This document shows positions 28,615 to 32,963 of a stretch of DNA of 32,963 nucleotides, one piece after another. The notes beneath the pieces were generated by a model. That model made no database searches and was not told the DNA's origin. It worked only from the letters and a program-made list of their open reading frames with translations. Both the position numbers and the translations under genes were made by a program. This DNA is from Candidatus Peregrinibacteria bacterium (GTDB lineage Bacteria; Patescibacteriota; Gracilibacteria; Peribacterales; Peribacteraceae): positions 1-32,963 of the forward strand of contig JACPYA010000055.1 of assembly GCA_016196295.1 (NCBI GenBank). Direction: 5' to 3'. Within the stretch, counting starts at the first letter, position 1. The number at the start of each line of letters is the position of its first letter.

Positions 28615-28689
28615 GGCCCTATCGTCTAACGGTTAGGACAGCAGGTTCTCATCCTGCAAATCGGAGTTCGATTCTCCGTGGGGCTGCCA
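28615..28689 (+). tRNA. tRNA-Glu (anticodon CTC)
   Basis: 75 nt including encoded CCA. Acceptor GGCCCTA pairs with TGGGGCT (G-T at the first pair and one G-T inside). The D arm is GTCTAACGGTTAGGAC, the anticodon stem GCAGG/CCTGC with loop TTCTCAT (anticodon CTC), and the T arm CGGAG-TTCGATT-CTCCG. It reads GAG. Its 3' portion, including CCA, overlaps antisense the end of the serine recombinase gene, marking it as the likely attachment site of the element to the right. Confidence 0.95.
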
Positions 28690-30267
28690 TACTGAAATCT
28701 CCTCCTGAGTGATAAGAGTTTTTGTCTCCACAGAGCCATGAACTCTTTTTTCGAGCCGACCCCGAAGCAGTTCTGTCGAAATGATGCCTTCCCGAATCTT
28801 CTTGAATGGGATTTTGGCCTCACATTGCACAATTCCATCTATCATCGTCCATTTCGAGCCGATTGTGACGAGCACGATCCGTTTGGCGTTCGGATCGTCC
28901 TTATCAAAGAACTTCAGAGCATTTGTGGCGAACTCAAAAGTTTGCACGGTCAGATCGAGCGCCATATCCACCTTCTTCTTGTTGTCCTGAAGCAACGCAT
29001 CGTAATGGTCGCGCTGCTGCACCAGACCACCCTTCTGTTTCTTGTAATCCTCCTCGCTCAACAGTGACCGATCTCCGTTCCCTTCAGAGGCATAGAGGCG
29101 CACGAGGTCGCGTATCTGGGTTTCATATTTATCGAACTCCTTTCGCCATTCCTTTTTCTGCTGCTCCAAGAGCTTGCAATCTTCCTTCAGAAACCGCTCG
29201 CAGACTCGCGCTGCCCAGAGGACGAACCTGTGCGGCACGGTGTAGTTTGCGATGATTGCGCGGAATTGTGCGACAAGATCCTTTTCGCTAAGCGATCCTT
29301 TTTGGGAGCACTGCCCTTTCTTCTTCGTTGAGCGGTAGTACACATAGGTCTTCTTGGTGCCGTCTTTGAGCGTTGTGACCTGCACATCCGCAGTGATAGC
29401 CGACCCGCAGCATCCACACGTCATCAGCCCCGTGTAGGGCGAGTCGTGGATTTCGTTTCTCGCTTTTCCATCCCTGCCGAGAATCTTCTGCACCTTGTCG
29501 AACTCCCGCTTCGTAATCATCGGTTCGTGTGCGCCCTTGTACAACTCGCCGTCCCATTCAAAATGACCGTAGTAAAACTCATTCGAGAAAATCTTGTAGA
29601 TGGCTCCAAGAGTGATCGGGCGCTCAGGTAATTTGTCAAAAGGAGGCAGAGTCAGATGCCACTCATCCCGCGCAATCTCCCAGAGTTGTGGGACGTTGTA
29701 GGCTCCGGTGAGAAAGAGCTTCCACATCTTCTGTACGAGTGGGAAACGCATGGGATCTTTGTCGATGTAGCAAGTGCCCCGCTTGCCCGGATTGATGTTC
29801 TTATAGCCCGTCGGTGCCTTCTCAGGAAGATGGCCGAGTCTGCACTTCGTTTCCATGCCACGCTTCGCGTCGATGCCCAACTTCTCGGAATAGTATTTCG
29901 ACTGTGAGAGCATGATGCCCAGCATCATTTTTCCTTCAGGAGTATTCGTGAAGTGATAGCTTCCAAACTTCAAATCTTTGAGCTTGCCCATGTCGAGGGC
30001 ATAGAGGATCACCCCCGCATCAATGGGATTGCGGGCGAGGCGGTCAGGATGCCACACGATGATCCCATCCGCCTCGCCCTTCTGCACTCGTTGCATCATA
30101 GCCTTGAACTTCGGTCTGCCCGGCTTGTAGGCGCTGCAATCTTCCGTGATCTCATCGACGATCTCCAAAGTTCCATACTTCTCCTTCAATTCATAGAGTT
30201 GTGATTCGATGGAGAGCGCCTGCTTTTCGTCGTCGGTGGAGCGGCGACAATAAAGAAAATATTTCAT
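28633..30267 (-). CDS. Large serine recombinase (integrase)
   Basis: 544-aa site-specific recombinase. The catalytic domain has 'YFLYCRRSTDDEKQALSIESQ' with the nucleophile Ser10 and flanking Arg8/Arg9, and 'DGIIVWHPDRLARNP' with the active-site Asp-Arg...Arg. A recombinase domain ('KRGMETKCRLGHLPEKAPTGYKN', 'MWKLFLTGAYNVPQLWEIARDEW') and a zinc-ribbon ('YTGLMTCGCCGSAITAD...KGQCSQKGSL') follow, then a coiled coil ('LLEQQKKEWRKEFDKYETQIRDLV'). The last 18 residues, from 'WQPHGESNSD', and the stop are read from the antisense strand of tRNA-Glu, beginning exactly at the CCA end. The start overlaps the stop of the upstream partner (ATGA). It probably integrates and excises the element at this tRNA. 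Confidence 0.93.
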   Translation of the reverse strand: MKYFLYCRRSTDDEKQALSIESQLYELKEKYGTLEIVDEITEDCSAYKPGRPKFKAMMQRVQKGEADGIIVWHPDRLARNPIDAGVILYALDMGKLKDLKFGSYHFTNTPEGKMMLGIMLSQSKYYSEKLGIDAKRGMETKCRLGHLPEKAPTGYKNINPGKRGTCYIDKDPMRFPLVQKMWKLFLTGAYNVPQLWEIARDEWHLTLPPFDKLPERPITLGAIYKIFSNEFYYGHFEWDGELYKGAHEPMITKREFDKVQKILGRDGKARNEIHDSPYTGLMTCGCCGSAITADVQVTTLKDGTKKTYVYYRSTKKKGQCSQKGSLSEKDLVAQFRAIIANYTVPHRFVLWAARVCERFLKEDCKLLEQQKKEWRKEFDKYETQIRDLVRLYASEGNGDRSLLSEEDYKKQKGGLVQQRDHYDALLQDNKKKVDMALDLTVQTFEFATNALKFFDKDDPNAKRIVLVTIGSKWTMIDGIVQCEAKIPFKKIREGIISTELLRGRLEKRVHGSVETKTLITQEEISVWQPHGESNSDLQDENLLS

Positions 30268-30704
30268 CGAGAGGTTTTGGAAAATTTGTCATATGTGCAA
30301 CCACATGCTTTGCATCGGACACGTCTTGAATCAGCAAGGTGCAAACATCTATAGAGAAAATCTTTAGTTTTCTTCCAGGTATACGATTCATGTAATGTCC
30401 TAATTTCCTTAACAAATTTCGGCTTCAATAAAGTAAAAAGAGTAATGGCAGCAGGTGTAACAAACACCTGAAGATCATCAATAAGAAGAGCATTTGCTTT
30501 TCCCTTTTGGAAATAATCAATCATTTCTCTAAATATGGGGCTGCAAAGGTTATTTGAATTTTTGTCTATGAATACACGGGAGACAGATAATTCGTGTTCT
30601 TTTGCGTAAGCGAACAGAGACTGCTTCTGACGCTCGATACTATTTCCCTGTTGATTATTATTTTCAAAATATTTGTGACAATAAATGATGTACTTATTTT
30701 TCAT
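30264..30704 (-). CDS. Catalytically dead serine-recombinase-like partner
   Basis: 146-aa protein whose first ~90 residues follow the serine recombinase N-terminal pattern ('YIIYCHKYFENNNQQGNSIERQKQSLFAYAKEHELSVSRVFIDKNSN...FREMIDYFQKGKANALLIDDLQVF'). Every catalytic residue I can align is changed: the Arg-Arg-Ser of the partner becomes His10-Lys11-Tyr12, and 'DRLAR' becomes 'DLQVF'. The C-terminus is unrelated to recombinase DNA-binding domains and ends in a Cys cluster (Cys120, Cys131, Cys134, Cys136) that could bind metal. Its stop overlaps the start of the active recombinase (ATGA). A regulatory or directionality role by forming mixed complexes is inferred. I start it at the ATG giving 'MKNKYIIY'. 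Confidence 0.75.
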   Translation of the reverse strand: MKNKYIIYCHKYFENNNQQGNSIERQKQSLFAYAKEHELSVSRVFIDKNSNNLCSPIFREMIDYFQKGKANALLIDDLQVFVTPAAITLFTLLKPKFVKEIRTLHESYTWKKTKDFLYRCLHLADSRRVRCKACGCTYDKFSKTSR

Positions 30705-30743
30705 GGTATCAGGGGGGAAAGAATGAAACGCCCAAGCGGGCGA

Positions 30744-30841
30744 CCCTGAGTGCCCAACATCAGTCAGAGACTTTTGTCGGCAGGATCGCCCACTTGAGCG
30801 ACAACAAAAATAATCTCTGAGCGGCGATGTGGGCACTGGGG
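30744..30841. repeat. ~100-bp nested palindrome upstream of the recombinases
   Basis: The outer arms CCCTGAGTGCCCAACATC (30744-30761) and GATGTGGGCACTGGGG (30826-30841) pair with small bulges. Nested within are TCAGAGA (30764-30770) with TCTCTGA (30814-30820), and TTGTCG (30774-30779) with CGACAA (30799-30804). The loop holds GGATCGCCC, related to the GGGCGACCC just outside. It could be a recombinase binding or excision site, or a structured 5' leader RNA of the recombinase operon. Confidence 0.65.
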
Positions 30842-30872
30842 ACATTGTATAGGAAAAATGGATAGATGAAAG

Positions 30873-31503: not shown

Positions 31504-31665
31504 GTTACTTCTGTTACTAACTGGGTTTTTACTCATTCTCTTGCGGCAAGTTTGGTAACAGACTTCGGTTACTTCGAGTGCTGCTCGGTACAGAGGTAAC
31601 ACACTGCTAGTTACCAACTTTATGGCTTACGGAGGCTCTTCTCCCTCTGTGGTAACAGATGTAAC
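31504..31665. repeat. Cluster of eight GTTAC/GTAAC sites
   Basis: GTTAC at 31504, 31513, 31568 and 31610; GTAAC at 31555, 31596, 31652 and 31661. Several extend to TGTTAC or GGTAAC. Eight copies in 162 bp, spanning the end of the ATPase gene and the 174-bp gap after it, suggest iteron-like binding sites for a replication or regulatory protein of the element. Confidence 0.55.
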
Positions 31666-32963
31666 AGGCTCAGGAGAAATGAGTGACGTGGAATAGCGTT
31701 TCGCTGCTTCCTGTACAGATGACATCTTTATTTCGTAGCAGCGTTTCTTCTTACCCTCGATGTGCTTGGTCTGTGAATGTTTTGTGCAAAGTCCTAATCG
31801 TTTCAGCTTCTCGTTTATGTCCGCGACGGGCAGGATTGCGTTCTCAGCGCCTTCCAGCATCCCGTAGAGGCAGGGAAGTATTTTTTGCGTTTCGCTGTCG
31901 GCATCTTCCGACCGTCTCACGTCTCGTACCTCTTTCGCTAAAGCAATGATGGTGTCGATGAGTGATTGGCTCCCCGTCGCCTTCGCTATCGTCAAAAGAG
32001 GCCGCCATAGCTCAGCTTCTCGTCCGATGACATCTGTGACCTGTAACGAGCGGCGCGCCTCCTCCACTGCTGGGTACGAGCAGAGGGCGGTAGGATAAAG
32101 CAATGCGCGGAGATCGCTCCACTCATTGGATTCAATCTCGACCTCTTTGTTCAGGAGCACATCGTTCGTGCTCCGCAACATCACGATCTGAATACAGCGT
32201 GATGCAAGCGCTTGTTCCAAACGTTCAATGCCTCCGAGTGCCTTTGGGGAGTACGGATCATAGTTCACGACATCGAATTGCCCCTTTTTCTTTCCTGGCT
32301 CGCACTTAAATACAGACACTCCTCGTTTGTAACCGCTCCGCAGAACATCTTGTAAAGAGCGAGAGTGTTCATCTTGTGCGTTCCATAGGTGCTCGACTTC
32401 ATCGAGGCAGCAAGTCGTCCCGTTTGCATGAACAAGACGGATGACAGAAGCAGGTGAGGATGTGCTCGTTAGTAGCTCCCCGTTGAACGAGAGCAGCGCG
32501 AGCATTTGGAGTACCTTCGTTTTCCCGCTCTGGTACTCTCCGGTGATGTGGAGATATGGGAAAGCTGGAAAGAGCCGAAAGTAGTACGTTGCGATTATCC
32601 AGAGCGACAAACAATGAAAGTGACGTTCATCAGATAGCTCTACATATTCCCGCAGTTTAACATTTATGAAGTTTTGCAGATCGGCCAACGAGAACACGTC
32701 GGCTCCCTGTAAGAAGATCGACAATTGTCGTTGATCCCAACGCCTCTGCATTCCCTCAGGAGGCAATCTCGATACGGACAAACCCCTTCTTGATAATTCC
32801 TCGGTGGTACAGGGAAAGCACTCTTTCTTGGAAGAAACGACATAGTTTTTCGACTCCTGCCCCTCTTGCACGGATACAGTGAAATATGCCACTCCATTAT
32901 GGAAAGCCTGTACGGGAAAGATCCTCTGTTGATTCGCACCTTTTTCTAATGTCGAATAAAAAT
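31627..32963 (-). CDS. Partial helicase/primase-like ATPase
   Basis: The 5' part is cut by the window edge: the frame is open past the right border, so the first internal GTG/ATG should not be taken as the start. The visible ~445 residues contain a P-loop domain, 'FPYLHITGEYQSGKTKVLQMLALL' (Walker A) and 'GTTCCLDEVEHLW' (Walker B), followed by 'SLQDVLRSGYKRGVSVFKCE' and 'DVVNYDPYSPKALGGIERLEQALASRCIQIVML', the pattern of DUF3631/DUF927-type phage and plasmid primase-helicases. A C-terminal winged-helix-like region ('PVADINEKLKRLGLCTKHSQTKHIEGKKKRCYEI') follows. It probably drives replication of the excised element. The last codons (VTSVTTEG) are made of GTAAC repeats. Confidence 0.75.
   Translation of the reverse strand, partial: FYSTLEKGANQQRIFPVQAFHNGVAYFTVSVQEGQESKNYVVSSKKECFPCTTEELSRRGLSVSRLPPEGMQRRWDQRQLSIFLQGADVFSLADLQNFINVKLREYVELSDERHFHCLSLWIIATYYFRLFPAFPYLHITGEYQSGKTKVLQMLALLSFNGELLTSTSSPASVIRLVHANGTTCCLDEVEHLWNAQDEHSRSLQDVLRSGYKRGVSVFKCEPGKKKGQFDVVNYDPYSPKALGGIERLEQALASRCIQIVMLRSTNDVLLNKEVEIESNEWSDLRALLYPTALCSYPAVEEARRSLQVTDVIGREAELWRPLLTIAKATGSQSLIDTIIALAKEVRDVRRSEDADSETQKILPCLYGMLEGAENAILPVADINEKLKRLGLCTKHSQTKHIEGKKKRCYEIKMSSVQEAAKRYSTSLISPEPVTSVTTEGEEPP

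Follow-up and report, generated by a model that had tools for sequence, protein, structure and literature searches.

The window analysed here is the whole of contig C17, 32,963 bases of a draft Peribacteraceae genome, and its features are collected in Table 1. A large serine recombinase (LSR) gene ends inside a tRNA gene and is preceded by a small gene for a recombinase-like protein, a structured leader RNA with a promoter-like hexamer at its base, two accessory ORFs and a primase-like ORF. In the last of these, DUF3631 is matched weakly and below its cutoff, and the phage DNA primase family phrog_35358 is matched at E=3.2e-4.

Table 1 Features of the window discussed in the text
Feature	Position	Strand	Remarks
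tRNA-Glu(CTC)	28615..28689	+	apparent element insertion site; overlaps LSR 3' end
LSR (large serine recombinase), 544 aa	28633..30267	-	Resolvase, Recombinase and Zn ribbon domains
Small pseudo-recombinase gene, 146 aa	30264..30704	-	serine-recombinase catalytic domain, predicted to be catalytically dead, without DNA-binding domains
Structured leader RNA (model R1)	30719..30840	-	long hairpin and alternative helix; without Rfam 15 match
Leader segment L', CAGGGUCGCCCGCUUGGG	30731..30748	-	directly 3' of hairpin; 18 bp complementarity to L
Leader apical-loop segment L, CUCAAGUGGGCGAUCCUG	30781..30798	-	
-10-like hexamer TACAAT	30844..30849	-	3 nt 5' of leader base; spacing common to most of 28 class loci
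Accessory ORF, 117 aa	30873..31226	-	no known family; by eye like the ORF in the same place in L005
Accessory ORF, 83 aa	31201..31452	-	no known family
DNA primase/helicase-like ORF	31627..32961	-	runs off contig end

The active-site residues of the 544-aa LSR, which an earlier sequence-only reading of this DNA had called an active recombinase, are intact. Its C-terminus is encoded antisense to the tRNA-Glu(CTC) gene. Of 18 loci scanned, 14 have a tRNA gene at the 3' end of the LSR or close to it. Because the LSR 3' end lies inside tRNA-Glu and tRNAs stand near LSR 3' ends elsewhere, the segment looks like a tRNA-targeting integrative element that carries a primase-like gene and runs off the contig. 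No convincing second tRNA-Glu copy marking the other end of the element was found in the window or the genome, and scans of viral contigs with the window LSR and with LSRs of the type found at C82, another locus of the same genome, gave no match.

Across the class, LSR genes often end inside or beside tRNA genes (Glu, Thr, Val, Asn, Gln, Gly, Ser, Asp, Arg and Ile), as at 28633-30267 in the window and at L036, L037, L003, L006, L007, L019 and others, with the LSR C-terminus antisense to the tRNA in the window and C82. Direct copies of 15-26 bp of the tRNA 5' region occur on the far side from the LSR, 93-323 bp away (L036, 6788 and 6881; L037, 6281 and 6374; L075, 8751 and 9074). It is possible that these copies are attachment-site duplications, in which case the element would bring a whole replacement tRNA gene. 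In several class members (L008, L012, L013, L022 and L027) the LSR frame is broken by TGA only, the pattern to be expected where TGA encodes an amino acid.

The small ORF is intact, running from 30704 to 30264 on the minus strand, and its TGA overlaps the LSR ATG (30267-30265) as ATGA, just as the sequence-only reading had described. That reading had also taken the 146-aa product for an N-terminal recombinase domain, which was upheld by three approaches. Pfam Resolvase (PF00239) is the single domain above cutoff (E=5.7e-6, 26.9 bits against a gathering cutoff of 23.3), with neither the Recombinase nor the zinc-ribbon domain by which an LSR is recognised; the AlphaFold2 model (pLDDT 75.7) has the resolvase alpha/beta fold, with a long helix E at residues 110-133; and the best Foldseek matches of this model are serine integrases (TM 0.69-0.77). 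The predicted fold of the protein alone is therefore that of the recombinase catalytic domain, not an unrelated one. Identity to the adjoining LSR is 27% over 92 aa (BLASTP).

Within this fold the active site has been lost. R8, S10, R45, R68, R71 and N72 are invariant in 47 of 47 LSR N-domains, and in the small protein they are replaced by H, Y, S, V, T and P, respectively, with Q19 retained. The loss of the catalytic residues, second-site arginines included, is thus borne out, and the protein lacks the combination of Ser10 with Arg8, Arg45, Arg68 and Arg71 that defines an active serine recombinase. Taken together, alignment and structural model give good support to a folded but catalytically dead paralog of the recombinase. 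The tail, which had been described as a Cys cluster, does not hold up as a domain: VRCKACGC comprises the end of helix E and a disordered stretch (pLDDT <50 at residues 136-146), and no zinc-finger family was accepted. An origin of the tail from a zinc ribbon was rejected, since the tail did not match those of LSRs significantly. Descent of the small protein from an LSR of the C82 type was likewise rejected, with a score of just 11 bits to that clade. tblastn searches against phages and against plasmids returned one weak partial match each.

The pairing of a small gene with an LSR is found at four loci in three Peribacteraceae genera, so the pair recurs in related genomes; among 380 genomes across the phylum there was no further clear member of the small family. 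At C82, a free-standing resolvase domain lies 5' of an LSR at tRNA-Thr, and its sole catalytic change is Ser10->Thr. The small protein of G147 (MFXS01000043) carries Ser10->Ala and N72->Ser, while that of G298 (JALHMU010000021) keeps every catalytic residue and is fused to an upstream ORF. These three proteins form a clade (support 99/85), which the window protein joins at weak support (47/75) on a branch of 4.33 changes per site; its profile scores are about equal, at 58.8 bits for the small clade and 57.6 for one LSR clade. A one-residue gap relative to the compared LSRs, read from the alignments, is common to the window protein and those of G147 and G298. In three loci a conserved Cys-containing ORF (CxxC...CxxxC) without Pfam family lies 5' of the small recombinase gene (L036, 3864-4451; L005, 1851-2516; L068, 10242-11072); in G298 it is fused to the small gene, in C82 to a different small ORF, and it is missing from the window.

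The small genes of C82, G147 and G298 end 5' of the -10 box at the base of the leader and thus upstream of the LSR promoter, so co-expression on one transcript would be special to the window. The proposal of a dead paralog coupled to an active recombinase stands for the window, whereas catalytic death is not conserved (G298 is intact) and the other three loci are uncoupled. This arrangement, in which the small genes of the relatives lie beside other element genes and that of G298 is joined to one, is what would be expected if the small protein acted independently of the LSR in some other role in the element, such as replication or regulation, with adjacency a result of compact gene order. Since the small protein is homologous to the catalytic domain of the recombinase and all four loci have an adjacent LSR, we consider such an independent role quite improbable.

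The distribution also bears on the directionality role put forward in the sequence-only reading, in which the dead paralog would join the LSR tetramer and shift it from integration to excision. Excision by serine integrases requires a partner, and known directionality factors (RDFs) are very diverse (PMC5814800); no RDF was recognised in the on-contig part of the element, and the small gene adjoins the LSR. Yet the small gene is missing beside nearly all other LSRs, including the approximately 70% identical one at L109, and so does not travel with the integrase as an RDF should. Moreover, the phiC31 RDF gp3 binds the C-terminal part, or zinc domain, of its integrase (PMC5814800), whereas the small protein is a catalytic domain only, and the rest of the element beyond the contig end may encode another RDF. 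We give very little credence to a directionality factor; a protein that inhibits or stabilises, or a mere relict, would suit the observations at least as well.

Signs of constraint on the small gene come from both the relatives and the window. Between G298 and G147, dN/dS is 0.225 for the small gene and 0.032 for the LSR, and the small-gene changes fall mostly at codon position 3, a substitution pattern that shows purifying selection at the protein level in this pair. Together with the survey of loci, this indicates that the small gene is rare, accessory and fast-evolving, and selected at least in G298 and G147. In the window protein, 28 of 34 core hydrophobic positions are kept versus 5 of 13 conserved polar ones (Fisher P=0.01). 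In random sequence of the same composition, 146 codons would be open by chance with P about 2e-5, and in simulations of unconstrained change at 1 substitution per codon the ORF remained open in 0.7% of runs. These simulations also failed to reach the GC content of the window gene, which at 0.347 is flat by codon position (0.39/0.33/0.32), which sets the gene apart from its neighbours and relatives.

The long hairpin 5' of the small gene, at 30719-30840 on the minus strand, has a z of -4.9, and homologous structures precede LSRs in other genomes. Among 12 leader sequences, 22 of 41 pairs have changes on both sides, with 54 cells versus 21 in shuffles and far lower values in slid controls. Our covariance model, R1, covers just the hairpin and leaves out the L:L' pairing. 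R1 matches occur in 28 of 338 genomes of the class, and an LSR lies just downstream in 28 of the 30 loci examined, directly in 27 of them and after the small gene in the window; the two weakest class loci (E 0.0036 and 0.0054) are without an LSR. A phylum-wide search added 12 loci, the ten best of which (E<=1.7e-5) each have an LSR -2 to 45 nt downstream, and all but one of them a close -10 match; the two weakest of the 12 again lack an LSR. In total, the leader stands ahead of 38 LSR genes in Patescibacteria, 37 of them directly (loci L114-L139 and L142-L153, and the window).

The leader, of about 120 nt, comprises two covarying and mutually exclusive helices with a -10 box at the base. A -10-like hexamer lies 2-4 nt before the first R1 base in nearly all 28 class loci, and a hexamer with 5-6 matches is present in 25 of the 28 (shuffled mean 12.7, maximum 21). 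Since this hexamer stands so close ahead of R1, the leader transcript probably starts at the base of the hairpin, as judged from its promoter-like sequence. Complementarity between L and L' scores 41.5 for a leader's own pair, compared with 24.7 when partners are swapped and 17.4 when shuffled; in the 12 phylum-wide loci the values are 34.2, 22.9 and 16.6. Forcing the L:L' pairing excludes the hairpin. Its cost is small in some members, with -53.2 kcal/mol against -57.0 in the window and -56.7 against -57.1 in L122, and reaches up to 14 kcal/mol in others. A pyrimidine-rich stretch often lies 3' of the leader stem. Given that L:L' is cheap in some members and excludes the hairpin, and that a pyrimidine-rich stretch follows the stem, it is plausible from these folding models that the leader acts as an attenuator-like switch. 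We prefer alternative structures to a simple L:L' pseudoknot atop the hairpin, because the latter would have to fit 18-20 bp into a single closed loop that leaves next to no linker, and is sterically unlikely. An attachment site or an LSR operator is a less likely identity for the leader, given a -10 box at near-fixed distance from the base and covariation in both helices; nor does L/L' look like a binding site that recurs, as the window holds no other close copy of it. No family in Rfam 15 matches the leader. We regard the leader finding as stronger than that of the small protein.

Leader and LSR of the window appear to have different histories. The leader shares 82-86% nucleotide identity with the C82 and G147 leaders, but the LSR falls in a clade (support 100/98) different from that of the LSRs accompanying the other small proteins; this clade has 21 members, and in the available sequence the leader is absent from all 20 others. 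The small ORF sits directly 3' of the leader, where 27 other class loci have their LSR. With a leader of the C82/G147 type, an LSR of a leaderless clade and a small ORF in the usual place of the LSR, the window operon is, on sequence grounds, chimeric and probably arose through recombination at this point. A chimera would also account for an LSR leader controlling a small paralog. It further supports, to a degree, the view that the small gene is a relict, the remains of an older recombinase or small paralog at a join where an LSR of a new clade was placed behind an existing leader, and the tail without homology, the odd composition and the wholly lost active site fit such remains. Under this single joint reading, tail and ATGA overlap alike would be by-products of the join. 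The frame that stayed open despite strong divergence, the preferential retention of the core and the purifying selection in two relatives speak against decay, and we consider a relict, taken as this whole, a substantial possibility that nonetheless falls clearly below an even chance.

We tentatively lean towards a pseudo-recombinase that modulates the LSR, an account whose chances are close to, though short of, even. It is consistent with a fold and hydrophobic core kept while the active site was lost, with an ORF that has remained open along a very long branch (4.33 changes per site), and with homologous small genes before the LSR in C82, G147 and G298, under constraint in the last two. In addition, Tn3 res tolerates catalytically dead S10A subunits at accessory sites, where catalytic domains act via a regulatory interface (PMC9943657); a dead catalytic domain can therefore have a structural role. 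On the other side stand the graded and non-conserved catalytic loss, from all residues kept in G298 through Ser->Thr alone in C82, the odd GC content of the window gene and the close LSR relative at L109 without a small gene. Because the window LSR comes from a different clade than those at the other loci, co-evolution with the LSR is not visible, which also counts against a modulator.

As a modulator, the small protein would comprise the catalytic domain and helix E, folded, unable to cut DNA and without att-binding domains. Encoded just 5' of an active tRNA-targeting LSR gene, apparently on one leader-controlled mRNA, it would most likely pair with the LSR catalytic domain through helix-E and catalytic-domain interfaces; mixed complexes would be dead or slowed, and recombination would thereby be limited or gated. 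We infer its expression, its contact with the LSR and the inhibition or gating, as well as any effect on direction. A more ambitious model, in which integrase dosage and direction are set by two layers, a new class of bistable leader RNA controlling the LSR transcript throughout Patescibacteria and, in this lineage, a dedicated dead LSR paralog that is made from that transcript and joins the recombination complex, seems unlikely to us.

If the dead paralog acts on the LSR, a pseudo-enzyme would regulate a serine integrase in nature, and this would offer an idea for limiting integrase tools. Whatever the small protein does, the leader is a clear and testable new family of RNAs, linked throughout Patescibacteria to a single type of gene, and it raises the question of how the elements of these little-studied and mostly uncultured bacteria time integrase production. 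Leader and dead paralog together may represent a new way to control when elements move. In the open-access literature we found no report of a natural dead serine-integrase paralog, nor of an LSR leader RNA.

Several known systems resemble parts of this locus. As with phiC31 Int/gp3 and SPbeta YokA/YotN (PDB 9dxd), a small protein is encoded with an LSR and could modify LSR complexes; phiC31 gp3, however, acts on the C-terminal/zinc domain of its integrase, whereas the small protein described here is a paralog of the catalytic domain. Resolvases of the Tn3/gamma-delta type share the use of catalytic domains for a purely structural job at accessory sites, although there one full-length protein with a DNA-binding domain does both jobs, while here a separate dead gene lacks such a domain. 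Like ccrA/ccrB of cassette chromosomes, the window has two adjacent serine recombinase genes on a mobile element. Both Ccr proteins are full-size and active, whereas one of the two genes here encodes a dead catalytic domain only. Finally, the leader resembles RNA attenuators and riboswitches in being a 5' leader with two exclusive helices of similar stability and a promoter directly upstream, and differs from the known ones in belonging to no Rfam family and in having strong matches only before LSR genes of Patescibacteria.
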